A stretch of DNA of 64,000 nt from positions 62,001 to 126,000 of the forward strand of contig KV918782.1 in NCBI GenBank assembly GCA_002049455.2, read 5' to 3'. The stretch comes from Porphyra umbilicalis (taxonomy: Eukaryota; Rhodophyta; Bangiophyceae; Bangiales; Bangiaceae). The notes below the pieces were generated by a model. That model searched no databases. It had not been told where the DNA came from and was given only the letters and a program-made list of their open reading frames with translations. The position numbers were made by a program, and so were the translations under genes. Position 1 is the first letter of the stretch; each line of letters starts with the position of its first letter. Positions 7,008-51,823 of this stretch are shown here, piece after piece.

Positions 7008-7943
7008 TTATAGTCGGAGATGAGCTGGGGCGTACCGCCCCAGCACCTCCCAGGCGGCCGGGGACGGGCGCCACCGCGTACGGACGTAGGAGCGGAGCGG
7101 CGTCTCGGGCGACGCGTGCCCCGTCATCTCAGCGATCGTCGGCAGCGGGAGGCCGATGGCGGACGCCTCCGAGCCGGCGCCGCTGCGGAGGAAGTGCGCT
7201 TGGTACTTTCCACCGAGCGGCGTCGGCGTCGGGATGAGGGTGAGCAAGCGCTTGAGCCAGACATTGGCGGTCCGCGCGGGCAGCCAGAAGCGGCTCTGCG
7301 CCGGCGGGGCGGAGGGGTTGGCGAAGAGCATCGCGTCCGGGTGTCGCCCGGCCGCGTCGTACTGATCGACGACCAGGCGGACGAGGGCGGCCACCTTGTC
7401 CGGGGTGTCGGGCGTCGTGTTGATGGGCACCATGAAGGCGAGGCGCTCGCGCCCCGTCCGTAGAGCCATCTTAAAGTCCACCACCTGGAGCTCGAGGCCG
7501 TGCGCGGTGAAAGAGACGTCGCAGCGGCGCATACATGCCACCGCCCCCGGCAGGTTAAACAGCACGAAATCCAGCGGGAGGCCGGCGCACTGGAGGCGGA
7601 GGAGCGTGTCGGGGGTGGACAGGCCGAGGTCACACACCTTGAGGATGAACGCCGCCGGCAGTGGCACGCGCTGCAGGCCGAGCTCCCCACCGTCCGCGTC
7701 CAGGGCGTGCGCGCGGAATCCATAGACCGCCAGTTGCAGAAGCCGGTCCTTGACCGGGTCGCCGTGGCCGGCCAGGACGTGCAGGGACGATACGGCAGAC
7801 AGGTACTTCAAGAGGGATGGGGGCGCCAAGGCGCCGCGTTGGAGCTCGTGCAGGACATATCCTACCATCGTGGCCGGCGACGCCGGCAGCGGGTCTCGGT
7901 CGGCGGACGCGCAGTAGGAAAAGAAGGCGCGGCACTTGCTCAT
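7008..7943 (-). mobile_element. Tyrosine recombinase of a DIRS-type retroelement (fossil)
   Basis: Minus-strand frame of about 311 codons. The N-terminal half looks like the helical core-binding region (PATMVGYVLHELQRGALAPPSLLKYLSAVSSLH). The catalytic part shows the arm around the first Arg (AVACMRRCDVSF), the HxxR-type box in AHFLRSGAGSEASAIG, a following GH (EMTGHASPETPL) and the nucleophile Tyr in RSYVR. These are hallmarks of tyrosine recombinases, used by DIRS elements in place of a DDE integrase. The RNase H/methyltransferase-like region just upstream supports DIRS rather than Crypton or phage origin. The element as a whole looks broken and old. Confidence 0.8.
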
Positions 7944-8074
7944 GTACGACAGCTTGGTGTTGGGGCGGTAGCCGCGGGCGAGGAGGACGAGAGCCGCCGC
8001 GGGGTCGTCGAGGTCCTGGACGAGCGGGCCAGCAACGCGGGAGAAGAGAAGCTCCTACCGTTGGGCGTCGTTCC

Positions 8075-8926
8075 TCAGCGCCGGTCGGGCGCGAAGCGCA
8101 AGGCCGCAGTCGGCCAAAAAGGTTGTGGCGCCGCGGCGGACCTCAAACCGTGGGTGAACACGCCCTCCGCGTCCGACAGTGGATCCGACTCGCAGCAGTT
8201 CTCCACCGCCACAGCCCACCACGGCTGTGCCCGCCAAATCGGGGTGATGAGCGTCGCCGTCGCCCCCGACGAGACGATCTTGTTGACGACCGCGCCCAAC
8301 ATGTGAAAGGGGGGGTTGGCCCAGGCGTTCTCGGCCGTCCAGGACTGCTTCAAGGCGTTGGTGGCCAGCGCGCCGGGGCAGTGGCGGCGGGAGTAGAACC
8401 GGTCGCAGCGCGTGTTCAACTCGGTTGCGAACAGGTCCACCGAGTGGGGGCAGTAGCGCCCGTCGAGCCGGTGGAACGCCGCTGTGCTCAAAGTCCAGTC
8501 CGTCGAGTCGTTCTCGCGCGACAGGCGGTCGGCCCAGTCGTTGAGGACGGAGGGGATGTGCTCCACGCGCAGCTCCACCCGCATCGTGTGGCACAGCTCG
8601 TGGAGCTCCCTGTACTGGGACATGAGCACCGGCGAGCGCGAGGACCCGGCGGTGATGACCCCCAAGGCCACCATCGAGTCGGTGCGCAGCCGGAGGATCG
8701 TGCCAGGTGGGATGAGGGTGTAGAAGAAGCGGAGCACGAGGGTGATGGCCCCCAACTCGAGGCAGTTGATATGGAGCCCATTGCGGTCGACCGCGTGGAA
8801 CCCCCGCGCCTCCGCCGCCTGGTTGAGCACCCCTCCCCACCCGAGGGAGCTTGTGGGCGTGGTGCCGGCGGCATCACGGTTGTGATCTTCGACGTTGGCG
8901 CGCAGGGCGTTCACCAAGTCGAAACA
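8075..8926 (-). mobile_element. RNase H and methyltransferase-like region of a DIRS-type retroelement (fossil)
   Basis: The sequence reads as the RNase H of the DIRS group: SLGWGGVL, then INCLELGAITLVLRFF, LRTDSMVALGVITAGSS and HIPSVLNDWADRLSR, which carry the conserved acidic positions. It is followed by the segment found after RNase H in DIRS/PAT elements: VDLFATELNTRCDRFYSRR and ANPPFHML, where NPPF matches the NPP(F/Y/W) core of the DIRS methyltransferase-like domain. The reverse transcriptase expected upstream is not present; at about 8.93 kb the sequence changes to a plus-strand gypsy-type gag. So only the 3' part of a polyprotein is retained. Confidence 0.8.
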
Positions 8927-8943
8927 CTCTTTTCTGCTCCCAT

Positions 8944-10000
8944 TATGTCTACTAGTGGTACCGGCGGCACTCGGCGAGCCACAGACGGCAAGTTGGAAGC
9001 TGGCTACCGGTCGCCGGGCGGGGGACGAGGCACTCCTGCCACCTCCGACGCCCCAACTGACGGTGCTCCTGCTACTCCCATCCCTGCGGAGCAAGCGGCC
9101 TCCGGGCAGATGCAGGTGGTGGAGAGCCGGTGGAGAGCCTAAAGGCGGCTGTTGAAGCACGAGTCTCTGGCGTGAGCCAACGACAAGTTGGTCGACGACG
9201 TTGAGGCCCTGCGCAAGGTCGACTTCCACGAGGAGGAATGTCGGGTGGCTAAGTCCTGCCGTCAGTCGGGCGACAAGACCAAGAAAGTCAAGAAAAGAAG
9301 CAAGGTGACGAGAGGCAAACCTGTCCGCAAGGACGATCCGGCTAATGCCGTGCCTTCCTTATCTTCCGATGATTCTGCCTCTGGGTCAAAGCCGACGTCG
9401 TCGGACGATGAAAACCCCACGGCGACGGACTCGTCTTCTTCTGACAATGGCCACGGGCCGCCACGCCCGCCGTCGCCCCCAAGTGGGTCCTCGCCGAGCG
9501 ACAGCTCAAGAGAGTCGCATGCGACCGCGCGCAAGCGCCCCGCGACCCCCACCAAACAGAAGAAGCGACTTGAAAAAGCCGATAGAATGAAGGTGATCCG
9601 CCCGGCTAATAGCCGCTGCAAGACCCTCCTGGACTACAGGACGTACTTCCTGATCCGCCGTCCACTGACGTACATGCCTCAGGAGGCACAAAGGTCGCAT
9701 CGTCTCAACAAACGTATAAACGGAGCGTTCCATGGGCAACAGCCATTCACAGGAGTCCTGCCCTTGGGCATCTTCACGTTCTTAACGACCTTTCGCCGTG
9801 CAAGCGACGCGGCTGGGCTGACGCACGGTCAAGCCCTTTCGCTCATGGTCTTTCGACTGACCGGAAACGCCAAGATGGCATTCTCCGGCGCGCTTAACAG
9901 CACACTTCGACGTAAGCAGTACCCACTTGGGCTCAGGGGATCGGCAGGTGCTCCAGATGGCCCAAAATCGCACTCTTCTCAGTCCCCTGGATCCGATTAG
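8944..10000 (+). mobile_element. Gypsy-type gag fragment (fossil)
   Basis: Plus-strand coding stretch. An acidic Ser/Asp-rich region with basic patches (KKVKKRSKV, ARKRPATPTKQKKR) precedes a helical capsid-like region containing RRPLTYMPQEAQRSHRLNKR and GVLPLGIFTFLTTFRRASDAAGLTHGQALSLMVFRLTGNA. A small domain with F.TTF..A.D..G...GQAL....RLTG.A is typical of Ty3/gypsy gag. No protease or reverse transcriptase follows; coding character fades by about 10.2 kb. It is a truncated, broken copy abutting the DIRS fossil in the opposite orientation. Confidence 0.55.
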
Positions 10001-11091
10001 CTAAGAGTGAGGAGACCGGCCAATATTTGCCGATTGACTCGGCTGGTTGACCGTACATCGGTACAAAGCCCTCCAACCTAATTTGCTCGAGATCAAGTTG
10101 GCACTTGAGTACCGAGCACGACAGCTACGGTGAGTTGACAGGCATCGGCCACGTCCGCCGCATGACCGCTTCTTGGGTGCACTGTACATCCCACCCACTG
10201 TCCCACCCGCTGCCCCACTCAGCCCCGCTCCAAGGCTGCCGCCGGTGGTTGCGCCCACCTCCGACGGTATGGAAAATGCGCTGACGACCTTCTCTCCCCC
10301 GGTAGCCCCGCGCATCAATCGATGCTTCTTTTTTCAGCGGCGCGTTCTCCCCCGCCCTGCCGCTCTGCAGCTTCCTCTTTGGCCTCCGTCGACGCGCCCA
10401 CTTACCCTACACGTTGCCATGCGCTTTGGGTCTTTTCTCACCACTCTCATTGTCACCCCCACCCCCGCGCTTCTATTGTAGATCTCGCGGCAGCCCTGGT
10501 CGCCGCCAGCGCGCTCGCCTCCCGTGAAGACGCGGCTAGGACCCGTACGGGCTCGTGTGGGCGACCCATCGGCGGTCGCGGTGACGGGCTCAGCGAGCGC
10601 ACGGCGCGGAGCGTTTGTCGGGGGCGGCTCCATGCTGCGAGGCAGGCGCAGCTGCCTCTTGGCGGCGGGGGTGGGGGTGATGGCGGCGGCGACGGCGGCG
10701 GCGGCGGCGGTGCCCCCCCCCGCAGGTCATCCAAACGGTCTTGATGGCGTTCCGCCACCATCACCAGCCATGGAGAGGCCGCCCTTGCAGGTGTTTAACA
10801 TAGGTGAGACTGGTGGAGATGGACGAAGAACCAGTCAACGTGGAGGAGATGTTCGGACCGGGTGTCATACAGGTGAGGTGGGAGATGTGCGAATGTGCGG
10901 AGCGGGTCGCACAGTGGGGTGGGGAGTCGCATGCTTCGCTCAGCATCGAGTCCAGGGTGGTCATCCAGCTGATGACGCACCCTCCACCACAAAGCCAGCG
11001 ACCTCTAACTATGTCGGCCGCCTCACTGATACTTCTGTAATCCCCCACCTAAACACTCTGACAGTGCACTGCATCCGGTGTGGTAGCCGCC
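10001..11091. other. GC-rich stretch with GGC microsatellite; no gene
   Basis: Unrecognised sequence. A GGC-rich simple repeat occupies 10661-10711 and is followed by a C run. The stretch 10804-11040 has an open plus frame of 78 codons (containing EMDEEPVNVEEMFGPGVIQV) with a rather natural amino-acid mix, but no family could be assigned and no start context or partner supports it. Confidence 0.4.
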
Positions 11092-11549
11092 GAGCGCAAG
11101 CAGTGCACATCACCGCCGGGCCGTTTCGAACATGGCATTGCGCAAAGAGATGCGCCCACTGAAAAACAAAGTATGCAGTACCAGCAGAAAACTACGCTCA
11201 GCCACTTTTTGTTAGCCGTTTTCTGCATGCCGCACCGCTGCGGCGAGGAACCTCGTTTGTCTCTCCATCGAGACGAACATGCGCTGTTCTCTTTCTCTCT
11301 CACAGCGGCCCAATCAAATTGGCCCAATCAAATTGCAACGTGCAATCGCCGGCCAGGCTGACAGTAAGGGGTTTAATCAGGCGATGGTCGCCCCGCCCAG
11401 CTTCGCCCGCCATGCCCCGCCGGCCCCGCCCGCTCACCTACCTCGGACGTCGGGGCACCCTCTCACCCCGGCGATGCGCGCCCACCCGCGCCGAGGGTCC
11501 ACCCCCCCCCGTTCGCCCACCCGCCATCGGGCGCTGACCGGGTGCTGGA
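11092..11549 (+). repeat. Dispersed repeat R1, plus copy
   Basis: A 458-bp sequence that recurs inverted at 28716-29172 with very high identity (a handful of mismatches by eye), so the pair is recent. Inside, two tandem copies of GGCCCAATCAAATT lie at 11307-11320 and 11321-11334, giving two CCAAT boxes 14 bp apart, which looks like a promoter module. Beyond 11549 both copies run into different Pro/Ala-coding arrays. It could be the 5' end of an unnamed non-autonomous element or of a duplicated gene; no TIR, LTR signature or target duplication was found. Confidence 0.75.
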
Positions 11550-12060
11550 CACCCCCCCCAGCCGGCCGGCCACCTGACGCCGGGCGGTGAGCCGCCGCCT
11601 TCCACCTGCCGCCGCCTCGCGCCCGCAGCCGCCGCCCGCCTGCGGCTCTCGGCTACCTGCCACCTTTGCCTACAGGCAGCCGCCTCCGCCTACGTGCCAC
11701 TGCCTCCGTCCACCTGTCGCCGGCGATCGCCGCTGCCGCCCATCTCCTGCCGTCGCCGACCAGCCGCCGGCTGCGCTGAGTCGCCCCCGCCCACCTGCCG
11801 CCTCATACGAACTTCCGCTCCCGCCCTGCCGCTGCGGGTCGCGCATGCGCCGCCGCCGGCGACGTTCCGTGGATAGCGGCCGCGTCCCGACTGTCGCCCG
11901 CCGACCGCCGCCGCCATATGCCCACCTGCCGCCCCAGCCCTCCCGCGGTCACCCCTCTCCTGCCTCCGGCCGCGTCCCGCCGGCCAAACGTCTATCGCCG
12001 CCGTTCTGTCAGCCTTTGACGCCGCCCCGTATAGGGGGGTGGATGGGTGGGATCAGCATG
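11550..12060. repeat. Degenerate CCGCC/CTGCC array downstream of R1
   Basis: Sequence dominated by short imperfect units such as GCCGCC, CACCTGCC and CCGCCTCC. Translation gives Pro/Ala/Arg-rich strings in several frames. A similar but not identical array follows the other R1 copy (about 28715 down to 28100). This looks like a variable simple-sequence extension of the R1 family, not a conserved protein. Confidence 0.5.
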
Positions 12061-12700: not shown

Positions 12701-14983
12701 GCGAGGAGGGGGGGGGGAATACGGCTCTCACTCCAACCGTTTTCGCAGTGTGCGCCACCTCTCCCCCTTTGCTGTGGCATTTCCGCGGTGGGCATTTTGC
12801 TTCCTGGTCACCCCCTCCCCCCCTCCCATTCATCCAACCTATGCTGTCCCTCTGACCCCCCCGTGGTGACTGGGTGTCGACGCCGTGTCGGCCGTGGCGC
12901 CCACTTCCCCCCGCCGCTCCGCACCCAGGCGCTGCCCCAGCCGGGAGCGCCTCTCCATCCACCCCACTACCCCGACCGGCGGTGGCGTCACGGACAACCC
13001 ACCGGATGCAAGGGGCGCCGGAGACGTGCCACCCCCCCCTCTTCCTTGGTGCCTCGACCGCCGTGACGGCCACCGCTGGGGGCCCCTTCTTCCTTCACAC
13101 CGTGCGTGCCGCCCGCATATCTGTCGCGGGCGGGTGGGACGACGACTCCCATCGCCGCCAGGTGCGCCCCCGCCGCACAGTGCTTGCCATCGGGACAGTG
13201 CGGGGGATCCCGGCGGATCGAAACGGTACACTGCTTTTGTCCACGGAAGGTGGGCGACGACGCGGGGGGAGGTGGGGAGGCGTGATTGTCGAAGCTGCGG
13301 ACTTTCGCACGCACGTGCAGATCATCGCCCAACGCGGCGGTGGCAGTACCAGCGGCTGGACGGCGGTTGCAACGGCGGCTTCTCACTCGGCGTCACCGCC
13401 ACATCCTCATCTTCACTGCCGGCGACGGCGGTAGCGATGGCGGGACAAGGCGGGGGGGGGCGAGCGGGCGGTGAGGTCGGCGGGGGGCGGGGTGCATGTG
13501 CCGCAACCGGTCGGGCGTCCAGGAAGCGTCTTGCTGACGGGGGTTGAGGCGTCAGGTCTCCACCTCTCGGCACCGATCTTCGGCGCCGCTCTCGTTGCCG
13601 GCCCGTCGGGCGGTCGGCCAGCGAGGCTCCAGATAAACGCGGTGAGCGACGTGGCGGCGGTCGTGCGATGGCGTTTTCTTATGCTGACGGTGGAGATGAC
13701 GCCGGTGGCGGAGTTGTCACGGTGGCCGTGCCACCGCCGCCGCCCTGTCCGCCGCCGGTGGGTCCCACTTTCATTGTTCTCCCCGCTCCCCCGTCTTCCT
13801 CTCTGCCCCCACCCCCCAGCCCTGCATCTGCACACAGTCACGCTCTCCACCCCGCCCTATTCAGCCTTCTCGCATACTCGTGGTGCGGCTGCAGCCCCCC
13901 GGCCGCGGCTGCATAACACCTGTGCGGCGTCCTCATTGGGCAGTATACTCGACCTCGGGTCCCAGGCGGCCATAAGTGCCATTGCCAGCGCCCACCACCA
14001 TGCCGCCGCCAGCAGCCGCGAGCGAGACCTCCCACACGGTCTTGGGAGCGCGTATGACTATGGTCACAGCGCGGCGCCGCCGCGCGACGCCGCCTCCGCC
14101 GCATGCGGGGGTGGTGGTGGACGCGGGCGGGGGGAACGGGAGCTCCCCCCGCTCCCCGCATCGGTGGAGCGCCTCCTCGCCGGCGCCGGGAGCGGCGCGT
14201 ATCAGTGCAAATATCAGCGGCAAGGTGACCCGACAAGCGCTCCGGTACGCGAGTGTTCGCGGCGGTGGCTGCAGTGGCAACGCAGCCACCGCGGCCACTG
14301 TCGTCAGCGCACCGGCCTTCCACGACGCTTCTTGCACCCCTGCTGTCCATATGCAGGTCGCAGGCGTGTAGGGGGCGGAGGGCAGTGGCGGCGGCGGCTG
14401 CGTCGTAGCCGTCAGCGCTGCTTAGCGGTTGGCCGCGGCCGCGGCGGTAGCCGTTTGTGGAACAGTTGAGCCCGTCATTCAGCCCCACAGGGAGGTGACA
14501 GTGGATACTGTCATGCTGAAGCGGCGCGGCCGCTGTCCCGTAAGGCGGAGGGGCAGGTATATCGACTGGGTACCCTCCCCCAATGGCGCGTGTGCAGTGC
14601 CACTAAGGTCTCCCCCCCCCCCACCCACATCCGCGCTGCCATCTCTTTGCCGCTGATGTGATGGCTTTGTATTGGATCCCAGAGGCTTCTACTGCATTTG
14701 CTCTCCCCAAGCCTCACTCGCATATGTGCGTTTTTCCTGGAGGCTCCGACGGCGGCTCGGTCATTTTTTGTTTGCTTTCCGGTCGCGCGGGGCGTCATCG
14801 CAGCCGTCTATCAGCGGCATGGGGAGTCTTTGTTTTTTGTGGAGGTGAACGGCGGGGGCTGATGGGACTCTGTCGCGGCGGTGGTACCGTAATGAGGAAA
14901 AGCTTGGAAAAAATGATTGCGAGAACCATACAAAGATACAACCGAGCACACAAAAGAAAGCAAGGACAAGCACACTCATAGAA
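12701..14983. other. GC-rich block without recognised gene
   Basis: All six frames are open for long distances because of composition, and none carries a recognised domain. Translations are Ala/Gly/Arg/Pro-rich. GC falls again from about 14650 toward the 3' end of the recombinase gene on the minus strand. Nothing further could be supported. Confidence 0.4.
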
Positions 14984-17294
14984 TCACACATTCGACCATG
15001 CTTGCGGCTTGCAAAAAGGATGGCGAATCTCCAACCGGTTGCACAGTGCCTTGTAGTTGATGAACGCGGACGTGCTGTCCCAACCGCCCTTGTTCATCAC
15101 CCACGCATCAGTCATCCCAAGGGCGTCGTACAGCTGCACGCCCGTCCGCTTGCCTGAGTGAGTGGCTACCTTGTTGACGTCCAGCATGCCGCAGTCGGCC
15201 AGCGCCTCCCGAGCGAGTGTCGTGAGCGCCTCGCACCCGAATTTCTGGTTCGTGTCCCAGACCGTTGTTTCCTTACCTTTCGCCTTTCGCACCAGTGGTC
15301 TGCAGAAGATGGGCTCGGGCCTCCCCCCGCGCACCTTCAACCACAGCAGGAGAACGCGTCCAGTATCTAGCCTGCGCAGGTGAACGAAGAGAGCGAAACA
15401 GTGAGTTTTTGCTCCCATCCCCGCATGCTTCACCCGCACCCGCCACCGCGGCTCCCGCCACGAGGCCTGGTCGGCATACACCCTGCGAGTTCATGGTGTG
15501 GTATGGCACCGCAGACCGGCCGTTCTCTGTCGGTTGTCTCGAAGCCAATGGCAATGACCAAAGTGTCTGCTGGTGACCAAGCTCAATTGTAGCACAAACC
15601 CAAGACACAAGAAAAAAGAGAACGATAACCTGAAACGATCAACGTACCTTGGGTCGGACCTAAGGGGGCCTGGCCACGGCTGGCAGACGTAGACACGGCG
15701 CTTAAGTGAGTTCTTCGTCGCGTTATTGATACTCATCTTTATGCCATTCGTGCTCATACCCATGTGCTCCATACTGGTAGAGAAGGGAACCAAGTCAAGC
15801 ATCAACAAAGTACGAAGAAAATCAAGTCAATGGCGCTGCTCACCGAGACCAAGGCGTCCCGACAGTGTACTGCCGGGTGGAGACCAGGGGTTGTCATGGA
15901 AACATCCCCGAGGATTTTATCCGTGCATTATATCCGTATCCACTTCGGATACGAGCCGGGGACGCATGTCCCAAATGCATTATGAGAAAAGGAGGTGAGG
16001 AAAAATCTATTTTTCCCGACAGAAATTGCAAGATTTTATCGGATCCGTATCCCAGATATGAGAAACAGGATACAGGGATATACACGGTAATAAGGCTTCC
16101 CGCGCCTGGCGAATTCTGGTTGAGCACAGTCGACCTCTCTTTTCGCGTGCCGACAATCGCGGAATGAATGTCCGAACATTTGGGAGCGACAAGCGGCGAT
16201 CCAGCCCGACCCAGGTGGAACCGTTCAATCACGAGACTCGACCCGATTGCGTTGCTGCCAGAGTGTAACACGAGATTCCAAACGGTCATTCTGACGTCCG
16301 TTTACACAAAGGGCGGGAAGCCACCCCGACGCTTGGGGCGTTGAAATCAAGTGTGCATTTCAAGTCGTACTGACGTCCGTTTGGCGCTCGAATAAGGCTG
16401 GATGGCTTTCTTCTTGGTCTCTAATTGGGCTGTCCGTCGGACTTGGGGGATTATATCCGGATCTAATAATCGTACACGGATATGATTATATTCTAATCAA
16501 ATATCCGGTTCCGGAGGCAAATATCCTGATCCGGATCTCAGCTGAGGGAGTTATCCGTAATCAGACACGAAGGATCGGCGTGTATCCGTAATCTTCTACG
16601 GCCGAAAAACCATATCCTGACATCCCCTGGTGGAGACACCTTCCAAATGCGATTGCAGAACAGCGATGAACGACAGTAAACAAACGTACCGTAGCATCAC
16701 GAGCTCATCATAGCGGAGCAGGAGGTTGGCACACAGCAGAGTTGAGGAGTACGCCATCAGCATGCGAGGGTCAATGTCATCAGCGGTGCGCCCGGCAAAG
16801 TGCTTCGACCAGCAGTGCAACAGGTGACACGGTTCAATATGGTCGACGCGACGCACCTCCAGCTCTCCCCGCCTCGCCCTGGTGATGGCATGCCCCTTAT
16901 ACATGGCGGTCATGTCGTCGGAGAGGGCAGGGTTACCAGAAAAAGTCGGAGGAATCGTCTCGAAGTTTGAAGTGATCACAGACCAGCTGGACAGGCCACG
17001 CGTCGGAGCAGAGTGAGCCCGCATCGCCGCACGGAGCTGCTCCCCCATCGACTTGCCCTTCAACAGGGAGTCGGTTCTCCAATAGAAGAACCGGGCCACG
17101 TCCTTCCCCGTCTCCGCGGTCACGGCAAGCGGGTCTAAGTCGCGCGCTTTGCAAAACTTCACCCACCCTCGCTTCCCAGTGATAGAGGAATCATTCTGAG
17201 TGTTGGTCGCGATAGAAAGGAGCCCGCGAGAGATTACGCTGAGATCAATGTCAGCGTCTGCGCGCAGGCGGCCCTCGGGGAGCGGCGGCGCCAT
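14984..17294 (-). CDS. Crypton-like tyrosine recombinase, probably spliced
   Basis: The N-terminal exon (17294 down to about 16690, start MAPPLPEGR) holds a SAM-like DNA-binding region (GWVKFCKARDLDPL, VARFFYWRTDSLLKGK) and the first catalytic Arg box, LLRYDELVMLRY. It stops at a GTACGT donor at 16689. The C-terminal exon (15482-14984) holds THSGKRTGVQLYDALG and GGWDSTSAFINY, the His/Arg box and nucleophile Tyr. A second candidate intron runs 15647-15483 (donor AAG/GTACGT, acceptor CTCGCAG) and leaves a middle exon around 15730-15648. The TH..R..G......G.....GW.....Y spacing resembles Crypton recombinases more than phage or DIRS ones. An earlier in-frame ATG at 17423 is possible. It sits head to head with the ORF at 17804. 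The long first intron is mostly filled by the ATCCG-rich stretch. Exon joins are inferred and the gene may be intact or decayed. Confidence 0.6.
15905..16610. repeat. ATCCG/CGGAT-rich insertion inside the recombinase intron
   Basis: About 700 bp with a dense set of ATCCG and CGGAT motifs, clustered at both ends (15918-15955, 16038-16050 and 16450-16600) and sparse in the middle. The palindromic forms ATCCGGAT and GGATCC-type motifs recur. Two copies of CTGACGTCCGTTT lie near 16292 and 16370. End-clustered short motifs are typical of transposase binding zones in non-autonomous DNA elements, but no clear terminal inverted repeat or target duplication was found. Confidence 0.4.
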
Positions 17295-17423
17295 GATGAG
17301 AGGGGGACGGGGGGGCGGCAGCTCAATGAGAGCAGACAAAAAGTGGCACGGAGAGGGAATAGTCGGTTGTGGCCAGATCTTTTGTGAAGTGGCATCAGCC
17401 GAGCAATGAAAATCCCTGTCCAT

Positions 17424-17803
17424 GTTGACGGCAGGGGGCGGGACTGCGGGACAGGGGCGCAGCCGTTGGTTAGACAGGCCCTCTGGGCATGCAATCGTCA
17501 GAGCTTGTGATCCGTCCTCGCAGTCAGCTGACAGGGGATCTCCCGTTCAGCAGGAGCTGGGGGGGACTACGGCTACCGAGGGGCCGCGGCGCGCGGATGA
17601 TGTGCCATTTCTGATCCATTTGACAACCAAAAGGGGGGCTACGTGCAAAACTTTCAACGGGGCGTTTCTGAAATGACTGGCCCGCCTTTTCCGTCCACCT
17701 GCCAGCTCATGTGCCCAAGTATAGCCGGAGCTAGCTCTGCTCGCCCCAGCAGCGGTACTCTCCGTCCGCGCCGGCCTCTTTCACCTCGAGCACCTGTCCC
17801 ATC
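17424..17803. promoter_or_regulatory. Shared upstream region of a divergent gene pair
   Basis: About 380 bp separate the farthest start of the minus-strand recombinase from the first ATG of the plus-strand ORF at 17804. No gene fits here. Head-to-head placement makes this the only possible upstream region for both genes. No TATA box was recognised; a CAACCAAAAGGGGGG stretch lies near 17625. Confidence 0.3.
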
Positions 17804-18595
17804 ATGTCGCTGTTTGACGACTGCGTCGAGCAGCACGTCGGCATTCACCCTGCCGCACAACTTTAAGCTGCCTTTTTTGTGCCCACCCCACCTACCGACA
17901 ACGACCTGCTTCTCTTTTCATCCGCTTCCAACATCTCCCCAGCAGATGCCGTGCCGCTCGAGCCGTGGCTTAACGAACTGGCGGCGCTGGTGCTCGGCAA
18001 CGCCGTCTCGACCGGAGAGAAGCTGCGGCGCGCGGTTTCGCAATCCGCTCTCGCCCGCGACGGACATCCCCCGCGCTGGTCCCCCCCTCCCACCTCCGAT
18101 GACCAGGCTACTGGCCAGTCGCAGGTGACGTCGGGCACTCCGGTGCTCCTGAACGACCAAACCGCCATGGATCGCAGCGGTCACGCGCCGACACGGGCGA
18201 CGGGCAGGGCCTCGGTTAAGGGCGCCGACCTCGGCGAGGCCTTGCGTGGTGCTCCCCGGCAGCCCAACCAGGTCGTCGCCCGTAGGCTCAAGTCGGTTGA
18301 CGACCTCATTCTGGCGTGGGGAGATGGGTGGAAGGGGTACGCGCCCATGAAGGGCTTCCTGCGGGTGGCGGGCGGCAAGCCGGACAAGGCGCAGGTGAAC
18401 GTGCTCTCCAAGGGCAACACTGTCATGAAGAAGATACGGAAAATGGGACGGGAGGAGCTTAGGAGGGCCTTTGAGGTTGCCGATGACGGGAAGGCTCCCA
18501 CCCTGTTTAGCATCAGAACTGGAATTGAGCGGGAGAATGGGCGGGAGAGTGTGCCAGGTACTAAGAGAAGGCACGGACAAATGACAACGACCTAG
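17804..18595 (+). CDS. ORF with GCR1_C-like DNA-binding region, partner of the recombinase
   Basis: The main open frame covers 17879-18595. The first upstream ATG is at 17804 (MSLFDDCVEQHVG) in the same frame, but a TAA at 17864-17866 lies between, so an intron with an acceptor such as CCCCAG near 17941 may bridge it. The C-terminal half contains LKSVDDLILAWGDGWKGYAP, then KGNTVMKKIRKM. This matches the look of GCR1_C (the DNA-binding domain of yeast GCR1, also found at the C-terminus of many Crypton recombinases): a V..L...W..G......I motif followed by a basic helix. In known Cryptons this domain is fused to the recombinase; here it is a separate, divergent ORF. Domain assignment is by eye only. 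Confidence 0.45.
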
Positions 18596-21442
18596 TAGTA
18601 TCTTTGTGCGTCACCAATGCAACGGTTCCTTGCCAACACTCTTTTCTTCACCCCTGGTCACGCCCGGTTGATACCACCCCTTCTGCCCTACAGCGCACCT
18701 GCGTCCCCGGTGCCGACGCTGACAGATGCGGCCGCCCCTTTCTTTGGAAGTTGGTCCGGACGGTGGCGGCGGGCCCCGTGATGTTTAATAGCGAGGGAGT
18801 TGATGGTGTCGACCGCCCCAAGATGCAAAGCCGGCGACGAAACGTGCAGCCCTGTCGTGGCGGTTGGCGGGGGGGTCGCCTCCAGTGAAGGGATGACGGC
18901 GGGCTCGTCAGGGAGAGCGACGCTGACGCCGGAAACGGAAGTGACAGTTATTACGGTCGTGTCGGCTACTGTGGCCAGCGTGGCGGCAAACGCCACTTCC
19001 GACACCCGGTCGCACCGTTGAGCGGCCGGGATGGCGCGGGCCGGAGCACGGGGCGGAGACGGGGTCAACTGCCCAATTGCGCGCGAGTTTATTGTCGGAG
19101 GGCCGCCTGGAGTGTTGCATGTTCCCCGCCCCGCGATAGTGGCGGCCGTTTCCAGCGGCGGGGACACCACGGCCGGCCACCGCAATCGCGACATCAGTCA
19201 GCGCCCGCGGGGCGGCCAGGAGGACGAGGGACCGGCGAGTCTGCGGCGGCACGGTACGACCGCATGCTTTGGGGAGGGTGGGGGTACGATGGCCGTCCCC
19301 AAAAGCAAGGTGGAAGTCCAAGACCGCCCCGACAGCTCAAGGCAACGGCGGTCGGGACAGCCGGCGCCTGCGCCGGCGCCAAAACGGTCGTTTCGGAGCC
19401 ACTCAACGAAGCCGAATCCCCCGCGTCACCCATCACCGTGTGGTTATTACGGGAGGGCGGGAGAGGTGGCGTAGACGGGCCCTGCCCGAGGATGTCAGCC
19501 CTCTCGCCCGCCGTATACGGGGCTGCTTGGTGCCGCGAGGCCACCCCCGCTGCGCGCCGCTTTCGCTTGAGGCCGCAAGCGGCACCCCCCGCTGCCGTGC
19601 GGCGGCCGTAGTGACGGGTCGAGGTGGGAAGCGGACCTGGGCCGCATCTGCTGCCACGAGCCGCTTGGACGACGGCGCAAACGACGTGCGGGATGTGGGG
19701 GCTCGCCGCGGAGCAAGCGGCGGCACGGTGTACGTCGGTAATGGGGGGAGAGGGACGGCCGCAGGGTTCCACCACTTGGCCGCAGGCGGCGGCAGTGCCC
19801 CACCAGGAACCTGCTTTATGGAAGCGGCCGAGCGCCGTCGGAGAGAGCGTGCCCTCCGGCGTGGCGGTTGGCGCGCGGTCCCCGCCCCCTTTCCGGCCTG
19901 CCCCGCGCGATGGCCCGACGGCCGATCCCCGCCCTTTTCAGCATGTGGTTCCCGCGCCACCCCGGCGACGACCTACGACGGCATCTCGGTGGCAGGGGGG
20001 GGCGGCCTGGGTAGCACCATACCGCCGGCGGGGGTCGTGGCGTCCGCGGCCGCATCTGCCGCCAACATCGACGCTGGAGCCGGCGACGGCGCGACCAGTG
20101 ACCAGGGCGGCGGCCGCGTGAGCTACGGCACGAGGGGCGACGTTTTCGTGTCTGCGGGCGGGGTGGTTCTGTGCGGCAGCGGCCGCGCTGGTGGCGTGCC
20201 GGAGCTGCGCGCCCCCGCCGACGCCCACAGAGGCGGGCGTTGACGCCGCCCGCGTCAACGATGGGGGCGGCGGTAACGAAGACAAGAAGTCCATCGTTTG
20301 CGGGGGCCGCAGTATGGGGGGAAAGCCGGCAGGGATGGGGTGGAGATGGGGAGCAGCGCCAACAGGAGCCTTCTGTACTGCCGGCTGAAAGGCGTCCCCG
20401 CTGGCCCCGGCCGCCGAGGGCAAAGTGCGTGTGCCCCCCCCCGACGGCGACGCCAACACCGGCAGCCGGCCGGCACCTACTCCCTCCTTCGCGAGCAGCA
20501 GGGAGCTCCGCGCCCCACCCCTCATCTCAGAACCACGTGGCGGGGGCGCTAACGCGGCGGCAAGCGGCCCGTGCAGTGGCATGGCGGCGCGAAAGCGCAG
20601 TGTCCACGCGGCCAGCGGCGGCGCGACGAGCGTGGCGCACATCGTCGGACGCCCGGTTGAATGCGCCTAAGACGACGAAAGCGACAAGGCGTCTGGAGAT
20701 GGTGCGGCCGACGTCGTCGGCGGCGAGCCACGGGGGTGCTTCGCCGACAACGACCCATAACACCTGTGGGAGACCGATGTTACCCCCCTCCTCGGAAGCC
20801 AACGGCGCTTTGTGTTCCACACCCTACTTTGGAGACGCGGGCGGCGCGGGTCGTCGCACGGCGGCGGCCGGGCGGCTGGCGGCCAATGCCGCAGCGCCGG
20901 CCGTCGGCGGCGAGGTCGTCGACGCGGGGAGCACGTCCACCTGCGACGACAACCACGCGGGCGATTCCGACCCGTTGAGCTACGGGAGCGGCTTCGACGT
21001 CGCGGTCGCCGCATCGACGTGCGGCGGCGACCAGGAGGCAGACGCCTCCGTCCACGTCGCTGTGGGCGTGGTCGGCGACGACTCGGTGCTGGCGTGGAGG
21101 CAGTCTTTGGATGCGCAGGGGGGCCAACGCGTCCCAGATGGCGTGCCTGTCACGGGCAACGCCGGCTCGGCCAATTTCCGGCCGGGGCGTCGCAATGGTG
21201 CGCTGCGGGCGCCGGGGGAACGGTAGGCGGTGCCGCAGTAGCGGGGGAGACGCCTGCCGGCGTCAGCACGTCAGCGGCCAAGCCTGCCCCTCCAAGGCCC
21301 GACGGCGGACAGTGCGCGGTGGTGGCCCTACCCGACGGGGAGGAGGATGGCAACGGCGTCTCGGCGGCGGCGGTGACAGCTGGCGCACACGGCGCCACTA
21401 GCAGCGGCATTGAAGACGCGGAGACGGCGGTCGGCGGCTGCG
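18596..21442. other. GC-rich Ala/Gly-coding island, left part; no recognised gene
   Basis: From about 18690 the sequence is very GC-rich with overlapping open frames on both strands. Plus-frame translations are Ala/Gly/Val/Asp-rich (for example SYGSGFDVAVAASTCGGDQ near 21000), minus-frame ones Arg/Pro-rich. Copia-1 is inserted at 21443, and the island resumes at 26945 with the same plus frame staying open across the empty site. Whether it ever coded for a protein is unclear. Confidence 0.35.
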
Positions 21443-21447
21443 ATGCC

Positions 21448-21869
21448 TGTTGAGCTCTGCTCAGGAATTCCATTGGAGCTATACTTACACGGGGGCACTT
21501 GGTGACTCAAGCTCGTGTACTTGTTGGCATTCCATTGTGTATGACTTATACTTGTTTGTACTTGATTTGTGTATCTCTTGGTGAGCTCCCCCCTTTTCGT
21601 GGTGAGCTCGGGGGGGGATTGTGCGTGGCGTGGTGACTGGATTGTGCGGCGGTGGGCGGCTTACCACCGGGGAGGCGCATGCTCCGCTTTGGGAGGTGCG
21701 CCGCAGGCCCTGCACACGCGGAGAGTGGAAGTGCCTGGGGGAGCACTGAGAGAGGGTCGTCTCTGGGACTGGCAGAGGGGTCGCCTGGGGTATATCAGGC
21801 GGTCCTAGTGGGCCCAAAGCCGCCATCCAAGTAAACCAACGCATCCGCCTATCTACCTCCCGCTTCACA
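21448..21869 (+). repeat. Copia-1 5' LTR
   Basis: 422 bp starting TGTTGAGCTC and ending CTTCACA. A TATA-like GGGGTATATCAGG lies near 21787, about 80 bp before the LTR end, a plausible core promoter for the element. It is near identical to the 3' LTR and is followed directly by the primer-binding site. Confidence 0.95.
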
Positions 21870-21884
21870 GGTTATGGGCCCAGC
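21870..21884 (+). other. Copia-1 primer-binding site, initiator-tRNA half type
   Basis: GGTTATGGGCCCAGC immediately follows the 5' LTR. It is complementary to the anticodon stem-loop region of eukaryotic initiator tRNA-Met (GCTGGGCCCATAACC), not to the tRNA 3' end. Priming by such an internal half-tRNA is known for Drosophila copia. Confidence 0.8.
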
Positions 21885-24800
21885 TGTCGCTGGTGGTCAT
21901 CGTCGTCTTCCCTGCGGTCGCTGGTCGGACGACGTTGCTCGGGTTGCGGTGTGTTCCGGCGTCGCGCGGGCCGATACCGCCGTCGACGTCGTCAGTGCGG
22001 TGCTTGGTTGCGCCGCTGTCGTCAACATGTCGGACTACGGCCGCCTTAGCGGCCCACGGTTCGCGCAGCTGGACGACGATTACAAGGTGTGGGCGGCGTA
22101 CCAGCGTGCGCAGCTCAAGAAAGAGAAGCCGTGGACGGCCGTCGTGACGGACCGCCCTGCTTCTGGTTCGGACGACAAGAAGTCCGACCCGGTGGTCGAA
22201 GCGTGGTACGCCATGAACGAGGCGGCGCTGGCGACCATCCAGATGTCGGTCAAGCCCGTGCATCTCAACACGGTCACGTCGGTTGACACGGCCAAGGAGG
22301 CGTGGGACGCGCTCAAGGTCATGTTCGAGGCACGTGACAATGCGCAGCTGCTGCGGCTCATGGACGAGCTGAGCAGCCTGAAGAAGGGCGACGACGAAAA
22401 CATCATCAAGTTTGCGTCGCGCGCCAAGATGATCCGGGACGAGCTTGCCATGCTCGGAAACCCGGTGGACGACAACGCGCTCGCACTGCGTGTCTTGTCG
22501 GGGCTTCCGTCAGAGTACGGGATGCTCAGGACGGTCTTGGAGAACGAGGACACCAAGCTCGTCAAGTCGGACGTGACGGCTAAGCAGCTGCAAGTGGAGC
22601 AGCGGAGCATTAGCGTCGCCGCGTCGAAGCCTTCTGGCAGTGTCAAGTCACAAGCCTTTGCTGCAGCGGCGCACAAGAAGTCGTTTGACAAGAAGTCGAT
22701 CGTGTGCTTCTACTGCAACAAGAAAGGGCACATGCAGCGCGACTGCTACAAGAAGAAGGCGGATGAGGCCAAGGGCAAGGGCAAGCCCGGCGGTGGTGGT
22801 CGTGAAGGCGGCCAAGGCGGCGGGCCCCACGCGGGTGCCGCTCTGGCCTACACTGCTTCCACCGGCAATGCCGGGAGCAGCAAGGCTCACGGGAGCACAC
22901 GCGGGTTGTCAACCTGGGTGCTCGACTCTGGCGCAACCAACCACATGGCCGCCGGGGATAAGGGCTTCACCGTCCGGACAACGGGAAGCGGGGCCTACGT
23001 CACATTGGCCAACGGCGAAAAGGTGCCCATCAAGGGGCACGGCCACGTCTCCATGGACGTTGGCAAAGGAAACACCAAGACGCGCATGGTGCTCGGGGAG
23101 GCCATGCTCGTGCCGGACCTGACTAGCAACCTGCTGTCGGTTAGAGCAGTCGACCGCAATCGAGGTGCGGTGGTGTTTGTCGACAATGCCTGCTACATTA
23201 TTAGCGACGGGGATGCTGTACGCTTGAGCGGGGTGCTCGACAAGGCGTCGGTGGTCGGCAAGGTGAACGACCTGGAGTAGTATGTGCTTAAGGTGACGCC
23301 GGTCCAGGCGTCGGCTAACGCGGCATCCACGCGCATAGCCGGGGAGGCGGAGCTGTGGCACCGTCGGTTCAACCACTTGGGGTTAGAGAACCTCAAGCGG
23401 GCGGCCACAATGGTCGACGGCATGCCGTCGTCAGTGGCAGACGCCAAGCGCGTCATTGGCACGGTGTGTGTGCCGTGTGTGGACGGCAAGATGGTTCAGG
23501 CGCCGAGCCCCCGCTCATCTACAGCGACGACCAAGTGCGAGCTGGTGCACACCGACATTGGTGGCCCACTCACGGAGTCGCTGGGTGGTTCCATCTACTT
23601 TAAGACGGCGCTGGAGGACTCCACGGGGTTCATCACGGCAACGCCTATCAAGACGAAAGGGATGGCACCGCAGGTTCTCAAGACGCGTATCAAGCAGCTT
23701 GAGACGCTAACGGGAGTCAAGGTCAAGCGCGTCCGTCATGACGGTGCCAAGGAGTACGTCACCAACGACCTCAAGGCATGGTACGAGGACAAGGGCATCA
23801 CGTCGGAGATGACAGCGCCGTACAAGTCACAGCAGAACGGCAACTCGGAGCGGGATAACCGCACGCTGATGGAGCGCGTGCGTGCTGCTCTGCTCGATGC
23901 CGGAGCGGAGGAAGGCCTGTGGGCTGAGGAGTTGGCCTCTGTCGTCCATCTGCTCAACAGGTCCCCCAAGACGGGGCTGGACGTAGCACCGCTGGAGGCC
24001 CTAACGGGTCGACGCCCCAACGTCGCGGGATTCCGCGTTTGGGGAAGTCGGGCGTGGGCGCTCAAGCCCAAGAAGCAGCGACGCAAGCTGGAGCCAAGGA
24101 CCGACGTCGGCCGCTTTGTCGGCTACACGGTCGGTGGAAAGGCCTACCGCATCCTCGAGGACGAGACGAACCAAGTCTTTGAGCGTCGAGACATGCTGAT
24201 GGAGGAGAACCCGGCTAAGGTCGAGGCGTCGGCAGTCGGGTCAAGCGCTGGTCCCCGGCTGACTGCGGACTATGACGGCGACAAGGAGGACGCCACGGAA
24301 GGGGCAATGGACATGCTCGACGCTGAACGCGGGCGAGAGGACGAGTATGCCCCCGACGACACCTCCGACAGTGATGACGAAGGCAGTGCTCCCTCCCTTT
24401 CTGAAGATAGCGAGGAGGAAGACGAAGACGGCCCCGACGGCTCGATACCGGCGGTCGGTCAAGGACCTGCTACCTGTGACAGCGCCGCACCTGGGCCTCG
24501 TCGCTCGAAACGAAAGCCAGCTCCCAAGGTAAAATGGTGGGAGAAGGAACCCGAGGCGTACCTGGCAAGCGGTACCAAGTCCTCGGCTGAAGCGGGTTGC
24601 GACCTGCACAAGCCCCCTGTGAACGAGAAGGAGGCGCGTGCTCGTCCTGATTGGCCGCGGTGGAAGCAGGCCATCAAGGAAGAAGTGGCAGCACACAAGA
24701 AGCTTGGCACCTGGTCCAAGATTAAGGTGAACAACAAGAAGTAAAAGGCCATCAAGACGCGATTCGTGTTCGACAGCAAGCACGACGCGGAGGGCAAGAT

Positions 24801-26410
24801 GACGCGCTACAAGGCCCGACTCGTGGCCCAAGGCTTCAACCAAGTGCCGGGGCGAGACTTTGACGAGACGTGGGCGCCGGTGCCCAACGCGGCTACCACA
24901 CGGGCCCTCTTTGCTGTGGCTGCAGCCACGGGCTGGGAGGTTCACCATGTCGACGTCAAGACAGCTTTCCTCAACGCCAAAATGGACAAGGAGATGTACA
25001 TTAAACTCCCTGACGGTATCGAGCCGGAGGGCGTGGAGGAGATGTGTCGGCTTAACCTTGCGCTCTAGGAGACGAAGCAGGCTGGGCGGCTGCGGGGCAT
25101 CAAGCTCGACAAGGAGCTCAAGGAGATCGGTGCAGTGCGGTCCAAGGTGGACCCGTGCCTCTACGAGTGGTGCCACCCTGTGCACGGGCGCGTCTTCATT
25201 CTAGTGTACGTCGACGACCTTATCGTGGCGGGCGAGAAGCTGGCTGGGGTTGCTGCCGTCAAGCGCTTCGTGTCGGCGAAGTTTGAAGTACGCGACATGG
25301 GGGAGGTCAACGACTTTATTGGCATGAAGGTCATGCGTGACCGTGCGGCGAAGACGCTCACTCTGAGCAACCCGGGGCACACGGCGCCGCTGCTGGAGGC
25401 GTTTGGGATGGAGACCTCCACCCCGAACAAGGAGCCAATGGCGTCAGGGGTCAAGCTGACTAAGACGGGCGAGGACTTGCTGCCGGAGGGTAACCGGTAC
25501 GCCGAGTTGGTCGGCTCCCTCCTCTACCTGTCCACCACGACAAGGCCGGACATCGCCTTTGCCGTGGGGGTGCTGTCGCGGTTCATGTCTTGCCCTGAGC
25601 AGGACCACATGCGCGCGGCAAAGGGGGTATTGCGCTACCTGCGCGGGACAACCCGGCTTGGGGTGGTTTACGGCGGCAGCGAGCCGCTGCAGGGGTTTGT
25701 CGACGCCGACTGGGTGGGCAACGTTGACGGCCGGCGGTCCACGACAGGCTTCGTCTTCACCCTCAATGGCGGGCCCATCGCGTGGGCAAGCAAGCGCCAG
25801 TCGACGGTGGCAAACTCGACGGCCGAAGCGGAGTACGTGGCCGCCGCGATGGCAACCAAGGAGGCGCTGTGGCTACGCAAGCTGCTGTCAGCGCTGGGGG
25901 TCGATGGCGGGGCCGTGCCGATGGGGGAAGACAACCAGGCTTGCCTCGCCTTGGTCAACAACGCCGAAGCCACCGGGCGTACCCAGCACGTGGACGTCGC
26001 GTACCACAAGGTGCGTGACTACGTGGCGCGCGGGGAGGTGACGTTCTACTTCCTCCCTAGCGTGGACATGCCGGCAGATGGGCTGACGAAGCCGCTGCCG
26101 GCCCCGGCGTTCATCCTGTTTCGCCGCGTCATCGGCGTTGGCTCGGATCTGGGCAGCTTGGGGCTTGGCGCTACGCCGGCCCCACGTCCTGTTTCCACGT
26201 GCTGAGCCCCTCCGTGGTCGGCGGAGGTCTGTGCCGGAGTGACCAAGGCGACACGCCGCGTACCCTTTGCGTTTGGCATCGGCTTCGCGGCGGTTTGGGC
26301 CGGTTGTGGTGGCCGGACGGTCGGCTGGGGTATGTCATGTTGCTGTCCGAGTCGGCGGGGGTCGACTGAGCCCCTTTTGTTTTTTGCACTAACGGCGATT
26401 TTTTTTAGTG

Positions 26411-26475
26411 AACGGTACCGTTACCGTCCACAAGAAAAATCGCGCAGAGTGCTTGGGACGGTATCGATACCGTCC
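26411..26475. other. Two perfect palindromes upstream of the Copia-1 3' LTR
   Basis: AACGGTACCGTT occupies 26411-26422 and the perfect 20-nt palindrome GGACGGTATCGATACCGTCC occupies 26456-26475, sharing the ACGGTA core. They lie between the end of the coding region and the 3' LTR. Their role is unknown; they could form hairpins in element RNA. Confidence 0.7.
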
Positions 26476-26516
26476 GATCCGGTGGACTTACATTAACTCC
26501 AATGTAATTGGGAGAG

Positions 26517-26939
26517 TGTTGAGCTCTGCGCAGGAATTCCATTGGAACTATACTTACACGGGGGCTCTTGGTGACTCAAGCTCGTGTACTTGTTGGCATT
26601 CCATTGTGTATGACTTGTACTTGTTTGTACTTGATTTGTGTATCTCTTGGTGAGCTCCCCCCTTGTCGTGGTGAGCTCGGGGGGGGGATTGTGCGTGGCG
26701 TGGTGACTGGATTGTGCGGCGGTGGGCGGCTTACCACCGGGGAGGCGCATGCTCCGCTTTGGGAGGTGCGCCGCAGGCCCTGCACACGCGGAGAGTGGAA
26801 GTGCCTGGGGGAGCACTGAGAGAGGGTCGTCTCTGGGACTGGCAGAGGGGTCGCCTGGGGTATATCAGGCGGTCCTAGTGGGCCCAAAGCCGCCATCCAA
26901 GTAAACCAACGCATCCACCTATCTACCTCCCGCTTCACA
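26517..26939 (+). repeat. Copia-1 3' LTR
   Basis: 423-bp copy of the 5' LTR starting TGTTGAGC and ending CTTCACA, preceded by a short purine tract (GGGAGAG) that could be the polypurine tract. It is followed by the target duplication ATGCC. Confidence 0.95.
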
Positions 26940-26944
26940 ATGCC

Positions 26945-28715
26945 GCGGGCGCCGAGCAGACGCTCCCGCCGCTGCAGGCCCCGGTAGCGACAGGGCGCCC
27001 TCGGGGGCCGGGCACGAGGTCAATGGCGACACCCACCCCCGACGGGCAATGACCATCCCCCCGCCCCCCCCTCCCGACGACAAGGCCGAGACACGCTCGC
27101 CCCCAGCAGGGGTTGGCGCCATGATGGGGGATACAGCGACGCTGCTGCCCATCAAAGGCGACAAGTCCACGCGGCGCCTTTTTCCTCACGTCAACGACGT
27201 GAGATGCTGGAACGGCGGCCCGACGGCGACCGTCCTGACAAAGCAACCGCCAGCTCCGCGGCCTGCGGCGACCGACGTCGTGTCGGGCTGGGCCTGGGCC
27301 GCGGTGCACGTGGCGGCGCAGATGGGGGCGGTCGACACCGGCGCGCCCGCCGCTGCAGGCGCCTCGCAGGCGACGACCGGGTGGTCGACGCTGCCGTACG
27401 CGTGGCTGTAGATGGGTAGTCGGTTTGGGTGCTCGTCGACACCCAGCGCCCCAGCCTTCCTGGCGGCGGCGGTGACGACACGGTGGTGGGCGACGATGGA
27501 ACGGCATTACCGGCGGCCAGCAGGCAGGGGGGCGGGGGTGTATGCCCGTTATCCGATCATATAATTAATTGGACCAGTGAGAGAGAATAAAGGCTCAGAG
27601 TTTTTCTATCGTAAAAGAGAAGAAGGAAAAAACAGATGTCGCTACGATGCGATGAACAATCTCGACGCCATGGAGAGGGAGGCACTTTGGCTGAATGCCT
27701 TGCACCTGGCCGTTTTCTGAAAGATTACTCCGAAGCCGGATGCCTTTTAGATGCGACCTGTAAGGCATGTTCACTGTGTGCAGCTTGCGGCTACCACACC
27801 TACACCTTGGTGTGGTAGGTCGTGGTGAGGAGCTTGCAGCGCCCCTCTGAAGGCGACGACAGACGGTGTGGTGTGTGAAAGACGACGGGGGGCTCCGAGG
27901 ACCGGCCCCCCAATAGCAACGTCCGTCGCCGTGGTGTGGTGGGCGAACGCAAAAGTCCCCGCGGACCCCCCAAAACAAACAATGACCGACGGCGTGGTTG
28001 TGCGGCCGACGGTGAGTGACGTCGAGCCCCCGAAACAGCAATGTCTCCGCTAGGGACAAATCCCACCGGCACGCGTCCCCAGCGCTCTTGACTGTCTCGG
28101 ACGCGCCTCCCCCCCCCCGCGCAGACCGTAGGCGCCGGCGGCAGCGATGGTTCTTGCCGCCAGCACGGTTGCCATGCCGCGGCTGTGCGCCAGCGAGACA
28201 CACAAGTGTGGACGAGCGCCCGGGGCAGGTCGGTAGTGCGTGCGGGTGCTTGCAGAAGGCAAGACGAGCCGCGGCAACAGGTGCGAGGGCAGCGGCTCGT
28301 GGTGGCTGGCGGAAGACAGGCGGAGGCAGGTGGGAGGCAGGGACAGACGAGCGGCTGCGGCAGAGGCCCGACCGCGGCAGGTGGGTGGTGGCTGCAGGCG
28401 AACAGCGGTGCCAGTTCCGCGCCAGAAGCTTGTGGGCCGACGGCGCCTGGTGGGTGGCAGCAGCAAGTGAGCGCCAGCGGCAGGCAGGCGGGCGGGCAGG
28501 GGCGGGTCCAAGGCAGCGGCAATAGGGCGGCGGTGGCGATTGGGCGGCAACGGCAGACGGGAGGCTGAGGCAGATGGGCAGAGGCAGCAGGAGGAAGGCC
28601 GACGGAAGGCAGGCGGCGCCCGGGGGTGGGCGACCGCAGCAGATGGGCAGCATGGGCAGGTTTCTAGCGGCGGCTCGTCGCCGGCTGTCACGCGGACTGC
28701 CGGCTGGGCAGGGCA
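26945..28715. other. GC-rich island, right part, and unrecognised sequence
   Basis: The GC-rich island continues from Copia-1 to about 27530. An AATAAA is present near 27588 on plus. A hairpin with 10-bp arms (CTACCACACC / GGTGTGGTAG, 8-nt loop) lies at 27791-27818. About 27900-28060 contains two to three loose ~60-bp repeats around CCCCC(A/G)AAACA.CAATG. From 28100 to 28715 lies the Pro/Ala-coding CCGCC/CTGCC-type array that follows R1 on the minus strand. No gene was recognised. Confidence 0.4.
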
Positions 28716-29172
28716 TCCAGCACCCGGTCAGCGCCCGTTGGCGGGTGGGCGGACGGGGGGGGTGGACCCTTGGCGCGGGTGGGCGCGCATCGCCGGGGTG
28801 AGAGGGTGCCCCGACGTCCGAGGTAGGTGAGCGGGCGGGGCCGGCGGGGCAGGGCGGGCGAAGCGGGGCGGGGCGACCATCGCCTGATTAAACCCCTTAC
28901 TGTCAGCCTGGCCGGCGATTGCACGTTGCAATTTGATTGGGCCAATTTGATTGGGCTGCTGTGAGAGAGAAAGAGAACAGCGTATGTTCGTCTCCATGGA
29001 GAGACAAACGAGGTTCCTCGCCGCAGCGGTGCGGCATGCAGAAAACGGCTAACAAAAAGTGGCTGAGCGTAGTTTTCTGCTGGTACTGCATACTTTGTTT
29101 TTCTGTGGGCGCATCTCATTGCGCAATGCCATGTTCGAAGCGGCCCGGCGGTGATGTGCACTGCTTGCGCTC
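28716..29172 (-). repeat. Dispersed repeat R1, inverted copy
   Basis: Inverted copy of 11092-11549, about 97% identical by eye over 457 bp, including the doubled GGCCCAATCAAATT box. Both copies end sharply at the same bases (GAGCGCAAGCAG at one side, GTGCTGGA at the other), which supports a defined repeat unit. The pair lies 17 kb apart in opposite orientation. Confidence 0.75.
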
Positions 29173-37613: not shown

Positions 37614-38045
37614 TGTTGGAACGTCATGCTCAACGCCGCTGTAAGCCCTCCTGCTGTAAAAAGCAAAATTCAAGAAATGGGGTATTGACAGGGTTCGCAC
37701 CCCGGCTCCCGGACGCGACCCGAAGGTCACGCCAAATGAGAGTGGGTGCCTACTTTCCACTAGGCTACCCATGCGACTTCCTCGCGGTTTGGTGACCGCT
37801 GGTGCATTCGACATTTGTACCCGTGCGATTTTGAGTGAACTTTTTGCGATTTCACATTTTTTGTTCTTGCGCTTCTGATGCTTTGATTTGCGTGGGCTTT
37901 GCTTTGATCCCTGATGTTTTGATTTGGTGAGCGTTTTGATTTAGAGTGTGGGCGGGCGCGTGCGCGGGCGAGCTGCGTGGGCTGCGTGGTGGGCTTGAGT
38001 GCTCCGACTTGGACTACTTGAGGAGTGCCCTTGATGGGAAGAGGG
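37614..38045 (+). repeat. Copia-2 5' LTR, partial
   Basis: Starts TGTTGGAACGTCATGC and matches the 3' LTR closely over about 430 bp. Its end region carries one arm of a perfect 15-nt inverted repeat (38017-38031 with 38042-38056, 10-nt loop). Confidence 0.85.
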
Positions 38046-51655: not shown

Positions 51656-51823
51656 CACATCGTCTAGTTCCTCCCGCTCAAAGACGCAGCGTCATCGTCA
51701 CCCCGGGATGTTACCGCCTGCTGCGTGTCAAGTCCCCACTTTGACACCCAACCTGCCCCTCAGTCCCTTGCTCTTCCTCCACCCCATCCTATTCTCTCCA
51801 TTCAATCCGTGTGCGGACGCAAC

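Follow-up and report, generated by a model that had tools for sequence, protein, structure and literature searches.

Does the locus considered here, within a window of 64,000 nucleotides (the whole stretch of DNA analysed), hold a Crypton whose two functions, a tyrosine recombinase (YR) and a GCR1_C DNA-binding domain, have been divided between two genes? According to PMC3212892, CryptonF proteins carry the YR and GCR1_C together in one protein, and most of these elements have 6-bp direct-repeat ends. The initial annotation placed the two functions on head-to-head genes, with introns in the recombinase. The minus-strand gene runs from 17294 to 14984 in three exons of 605, 126 and 388 bases, which would encode 372 amino acids plus a stop, and is laid out as follows:

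16690–17294, minus strand: YR exon 1, with the core-binding region and box I LLLRYDELVML, placed by codon score by frame and by the alignment of box I to integrase profiles
15774–16689, minus strand: intron 1, GTACGT...CTCTACCAG, 916 bp, placed by frame continuity and splice signals
15885–16629, no strand assigned: 745-bp insert in intron 1, with an 8-bp repeat GTGGAGAC at 15877–15884 and 16630–16637 and short inverted ends CAGGGG
15648–15773, minus strand: YR exon 2, placed by frame, codon score +0.16
15372–15647, minus strand: intron 2, GTACGT...ACCTGCGCAG, 276 bp (annotated initially as 15483–15647)
14984–15371, minus strand: YR exon 3, with THSGKRTG, GGW, FINY and the stop

Judged by its sequence, this gene almost certainly encodes a tyrosine recombinase. 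It was compared with 18 plasmid integrases: three (L001–L003) selected for their likeness to the YR, ten (L004–L013) from the best 30 of 1736 records with L001 as the query, and five (L014–L018) from the best 10 of 277 records with a DIRS-like YR of the same window as the query, this last set being independent of the focal YR. The profile of all 18, which is biased by the selection of L001–L003, gave the YR 28.1 bits against 7.9 for the best of 5000 shuffles. Without L001–L003 the scores were 22.5 against 9.6; with L004–L013, the poorest separation of the subsets, 14.4 against 12.7; and with the independent L014–L018, 22.7 against 9.5 for the best of 5000 shuffles. Since none of 5000 shuffles reached the YR score in any of the four profiles, including the one chosen independently, we consider homology to tyrosine recombinases established.

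A tblastn search of plasmids with the YR returned 12 records at E≤10, eight of which are annotated as site-specific integrases (E 0.1–2, residues 170–289), and a search of phages returned 34 records at E 7–10, with no integrase among the 20 matches listed. The profile check suggested for the recombinase found no Pfam family at E≤10, NDC10_II included, nor any PHROG at the same threshold, and the one row from the PDB, a hydrolase at E 0.43, is a chance match. No relatives were found in the viral and genome contigs scanned. Single-sequence AlphaFold models of YR exon 3 and of the C-terminal part of the plus-strand protein were poor (mean pLDDT 46 and 48), and Rfam and tRNA scans gave nothing of use.

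The minus-strand exons proposed initially, with an Arg box LLRYDELVML, THSGKRTG and FINY, are borne out on the sequence, and so are the introns, both of which start with GTACGT and finish with AG while keeping the frame. Of the exon joins, the GT donors at 16689 and 15647 are present and stand, whereas the acceptor at 15483 probably does not. Two candidates leave the frame intact, AG 15484–15483 and AG 15373–15372 (after CTGTTTCGCTCTCTTCGTTCACCTGCG), the second lying 111 bases further on. We prefer 15372 because of its better pyrimidine tract, a gain of +8.3, +5.8, +4.9 and +5.0 bits for the shorter product across the four integrase profiles (part of which is due to the fact that deleting any insertion lifts a profile score somewhat), and the lack of coding signal in the 108 bases that it excludes, which score -0.10 per codon versus +0.18 for the remaining exon 3. 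Acceptor 15372 thus fits better, and 15483 is probably wrong. As for the start, ATG 17294 is preferred over ATG 17423: the codon score from 17294 is +0.11 per codon, and the upstream candidate was dropped because the 129 intervening bases, in which it lies, have an in-frame score of -0.53 per codon.

The insert in intron 1 is presumably a MITE of the hAT type, judging by the criteria for such elements. Without it and one GTGGAGAC repeat, intron 1 would measure 163 bp; the octamer itself occurs five times in the window, against 2.4 expected.

We aligned the active site with 19 comparators: the plasmid integrases (18) plus the window's DIRS-like YR. The box I arginine is present in the YR and in 18 of the 19, and the box II histidine and the catalytic tyrosine in the YR and in all 19. 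Box III has a tryptophan (13 H, 4 Q, 1 W and 1 D in the comparators). The THSGKRTG box is thus where the initial annotation saw it, but it reads H-x-x-K instead of the usual H-x-x-R: the fourth position is a lysine, directly followed by an arginine, versus an arginine in 19/19. Of the full active site R, H-x-x-R, H/W, Y, the YR therefore keeps R, H, W and Y, with lysine in place of the second arginine. Because this catalytic residue is replaced, normal recombinase activity appears doubtful from the sequence.

To which group does this recombinase belong? Its alignment with bacterial and plasmid tyrosine integrases holds in the catalytic columns R, H and Y; unlike them, it has introns, the box III tryptophan (W in 1/19 comparators) and lysine for arginine. 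A CryptonF-type consensus that itself reaches 194.6 bits on PF16787 (NDC10_II) gave 6.4 bits against the YR, with 5.9 for the best of 5000 shuffles, and aligned THAGRGSG on THSGKRTG and GRW on GGW. With the same consensus, the window's DIRS-like YR yielded no reported match. Among eight single bacterial integrases, L001 alone scored above all shuffles, and its 16.7 bits exceed the CryptonF consensus, L001 having been picked for its likeness to the YR; L018 reached 5.6 bits with one shuffle higher, and the remaining six were exceeded by 52 to 318 shuffles. The lean towards CryptonF is weak, and with no Pfam family matched and lysine at the second catalytic arginine we infer a kinship of the YR with Cryptons only tentatively.

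The locus resembles fungal and oomycete CryptonF in its TH.G..[ST]G and G.W-like boxes, a weak likeness, and in the GCR1_C-like stretch close by. It departs from them in having two divergent ORFs where PMC3212892 describes one protein, in the lack of Pfam matches to NDC10_II and GCR1_C, and in its lysine. GCR1_C has no Pfam match in the YR protein itself, which stops 22 residues past the tyrosine and so lacks a DNA-binding domain at its C-terminus. A YR protein that does not include GCR1_C is also what CryptonS, CryptonA and CryptonI have. A second protein is in itself known: PMC3212892 describes one, a C48 peptidase, in some oomycete Cryptons, and in some CryptonS and CryptonF elements, whereas the second ORF here is small, basic and matches no Pfam family.

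This second ORF and its surroundings comprise the following features:

17295–17803, no strand assigned: upstream region of about 510 bp that the two genes presumably share, between the YR start chosen on codon score and a tentative plus-strand start
17867–18595, plus strand: divergent ORF, likely coding from about 17945, after a 3'-splice-like CTTCTCTTTTCATCCGCTTCCAACATCTCCCCAG
18287–18454, plus strand: GCR1_C-like stretch, from KSVDDLILAWGDGWKGYAPMKGFLRVAGGK... to about ...GREE, of which the first half alone is supported
18598–18607, plus strand: GTATCTTTGT, directly past the plus-strand stop
14930–14939, minus strand: GTATCTTTGT, downstream of the YR stop

The open plus-strand frame with its V..L...W..G motif was correctly described at the outset, and its openness proves little because the antisense frame is also open. 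Codon usage is more telling: the frame 17945–18592 scores +0.12 per codon and the other five frames -0.13 to -0.50. Among 209 stop-to-stop ORFs of at least 120 amino acids, the plus ORF ranks 9th and YR exon 3 follows it in 10th place; the ORF that holds exon 1, counted whole and so including non-coding ends, comes 31st. The codon frequencies were trained on the copia-type ORFs of the window, and five of the eight higher-ranked ORFs were among those used for the training. All eight belong to copia-type elements and seven carry copia-type domains, the eighth (41325–41774) having no Pfam match at E≤0.01 and lying on the same strand just behind a copia-type ORF. On this signal the plus ORF is very probably coding. 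It matched no family in Pfam, PHROG or the PDB at E≤10, chance PDB rows aside, and Foldseek with its model returned nine rows, none at E≤0.001. Its start is less plain. ATG 17804 lies outside the open plus frame, and an intron joining the two was tried and rejected, there being no GT donor in the right phase before the in-frame stop, a GC donor only. Measured between ATG 17294 and the plus-strand ATG 17804, the presumed shared region would come to about 510 bp, in place of the 380 bp first given, which counts from ATG 17423.

Is this ORF related to GCR1_C? The HMM check called for at the outset gave no Pfam match to GCR1_C at E≤10. Two GCR1_C consensus sequences, with scores on PF12550 of 91.1 and 85.1 bits, served for a further comparison. 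Against the first, the plus ORF scores 46. Of 5000 shuffles, 10 attain this value (9 when the domain is taken by itself), and the ORF comes top of 667 in the window, the runner-up scoring 43. Against the second nothing stands out, since 1514 and 1763 of 5000 shuffles do as well. Chimeras between the first consensus and segments of the window separated the two halves of the stretch: the first, with V..L...W..G..G, scored 51.5 bits on PF12550 versus 36.4–41.2 for five shuffles, and the second 43.0 versus 39.4–49.6, one of the five shuffles (49.6) beating it. Taken additively, the chimeras give an estimate of about 3–5 bits (3.4 to 4.6) on PF12550, for which the cut-off is 23. The plus ORF lacks two motifs of the consensus, KWR and SRRK. 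The likeness therefore amounts to a nominal p of about 0.002–0.003 for half a domain and one of two consensuses, the value of about 0.003 being an E-value extrapolation for a single family. Of the resemblance to GCR1_C claimed initially, the V..L...W..G..G half remains suggestive, and the second half, like the domain as a whole in Pfam, finds no support. A true kinship with GCR1_C is thus conceivable from the sequence, and we would sooner bet against it.

Whether the two genes form one unit is a separate matter. Neither the YR gene nor the plus ORF has a second copy in the 64-kb window. GC content is 57% over 14700–18700 and 68% and 71% in the flanks, a drop to which the AT-rich insert of intron 1 contributes. 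The ten longest flanking ORFs (12.0–14.6 and 18.7–21.2 kb) contain no Pfam domain, one sub-threshold row aside. The decamer GTATCTTTGT has no exact copies in the window beyond those after the two stops, and could be a 10-bp inverted end or a common 3'-end signal, a possibility that is not significant: as inverted ends the pair was rejected, since allowing up to one mismatch gives four matches in the window, a number that 7 of 100 shuffles reach. In the titles and abstracts of the literature searched, which cover neither most subscription journals nor Repbase Reports, we found no split or divergent Crypton, which is weak evidence of novelty.

The explanation that we favour, at a little under an even chance, is a diverged, eukaryotic, Crypton-type YR gene whose head-to-head neighbour, a coding ORF, is possibly its separated DNA-binding partner. 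The YR, if active, would use its tyrosine to nick DNA where short sequences are identical, cutting out a circle that it then inserts again; the plus-strand protein would hold the ends of the element, serving as GCR1_C does in fungal Cryptons, there within one protein; and both would be made from a single divergent promoter region. The partnership of the two genes and their mobility are what we infer in addition. The full proposal, that YR and GCR1_C functions sit on two genes of one mobile unit, is improbable, and the same holds for a split Crypton in the strict sense, whose YR and GCR1_C-type domain would be encoded by two genes, transcribed away from a common control region, and would act in trans. 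Lysine in place of the second catalytic arginine, an intron with a MITE in it and a window free of further copies suggest a copy that is weakened, decaying or co-opted. Were the pair one unit, it would show that a Crypton transposase can receive its DNA-binding domain in trans, a point of relevance to how GCR1_C became a regulator domain that stands alone in yeasts. The active-site lysine offers a direct test point between a living enzyme and a co-opted one.

The strongest competitor, which we hold to be quite plausible if short of probable, is a remnant of a Crypton-type or other YR element beside an unrelated host gene, its likeness to GCR1_C being due to chance. The silence of Pfam on GCR1_C speaks for it, as does a likeness limited to half a domain and one of two consensuses, and the linkage has been observed once only. 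Against it, the ORF that tops all 667 for GCR1_C, by one consensus, is the very one that adjoins a YR without a GCR1_C-type domain of its own.

We consider it rather unlikely that the locus is a co-opted, Crypton-derived pair of host genes, in which the YR fold would serve for DNA binding with an altered active site and the neighbour would act as a regulator. The comparison is with yeast Gcr1 and Cbf2, which, according to PMC3212892, retain YR-like parts and have lost the catalytic site. The focal locus likewise has an altered active site in a region derived from a YR, and a GCR1_C-like DNA binder would fit; unlike Gcr1 and Cbf2, which are one gene each, it has two, and its YR keeps most catalytic residues. 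Co-option would account for a frame that is intact but for lysine at the second arginine, for the introns and for a window without a second copy. However, none of R, H, W and Y has been lost, whereas DUF3504 domains are described as missing most of the catalytic tetrad (PMC3212892), and no orthologue was seen in the collections scanned.

It is very unlikely that the locus is what remains of a DIRS/Ngaro retroelement with a YR, the plus ORF being its displaced gag: a DIRS-like YR with a Dam-type methylase does lie 6–8 kb away, likewise with a head-to-head plus-strand ORF, but the ten longest flanking ORFs show no reverse transcriptase or RNase H domain, the hallmark of such elements, the CryptonF consensus matches the focal YR with no match reported for the DIRS-like one, and the two plus ORFs match each other only over a Ser/Pro-rich stretch (E 0.029).

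The DIRS-like fragment itself lies at 7011–8935 on the minus strand. Its YR, which matches a PHROG integrase (E 1.2e-8) and Phage_int_SAM_1 (E 4e-4), comes after a methylase of the Dam type (PF05869, E 1.5e-10) and what looks by eye like an RNase H, and it stands head to head with an ORF at 9176–9997 (plus strand) that is gag-like by eye and blank in Pfam. An ORF at 43437–44213 (plus strand) has a weak chromodomain match (E 0.0056, below the cut-off). A 0.5-kb repeat forms an inverted pair at 11091–11598 and 28667–29173, 95% identical. Of the copia-type elements, one at 21448–26939 (plus strand) has end repeats of about 423 bp that are 98.3% identical (21448–21869 and 26517–26939) and enclose gag, integrase and RVT_2 ORFs, and a second copy at 49133–51664 (plus strand) is 87% identical to 22296–24737 across 2.4 kb. 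Finally, a repeat family at 37614–38045, 41926–42468 and 45851–46394, the last inverted, is 97–98% identical, and two of its copies flank the copia-type ORFs at 38907–41774.
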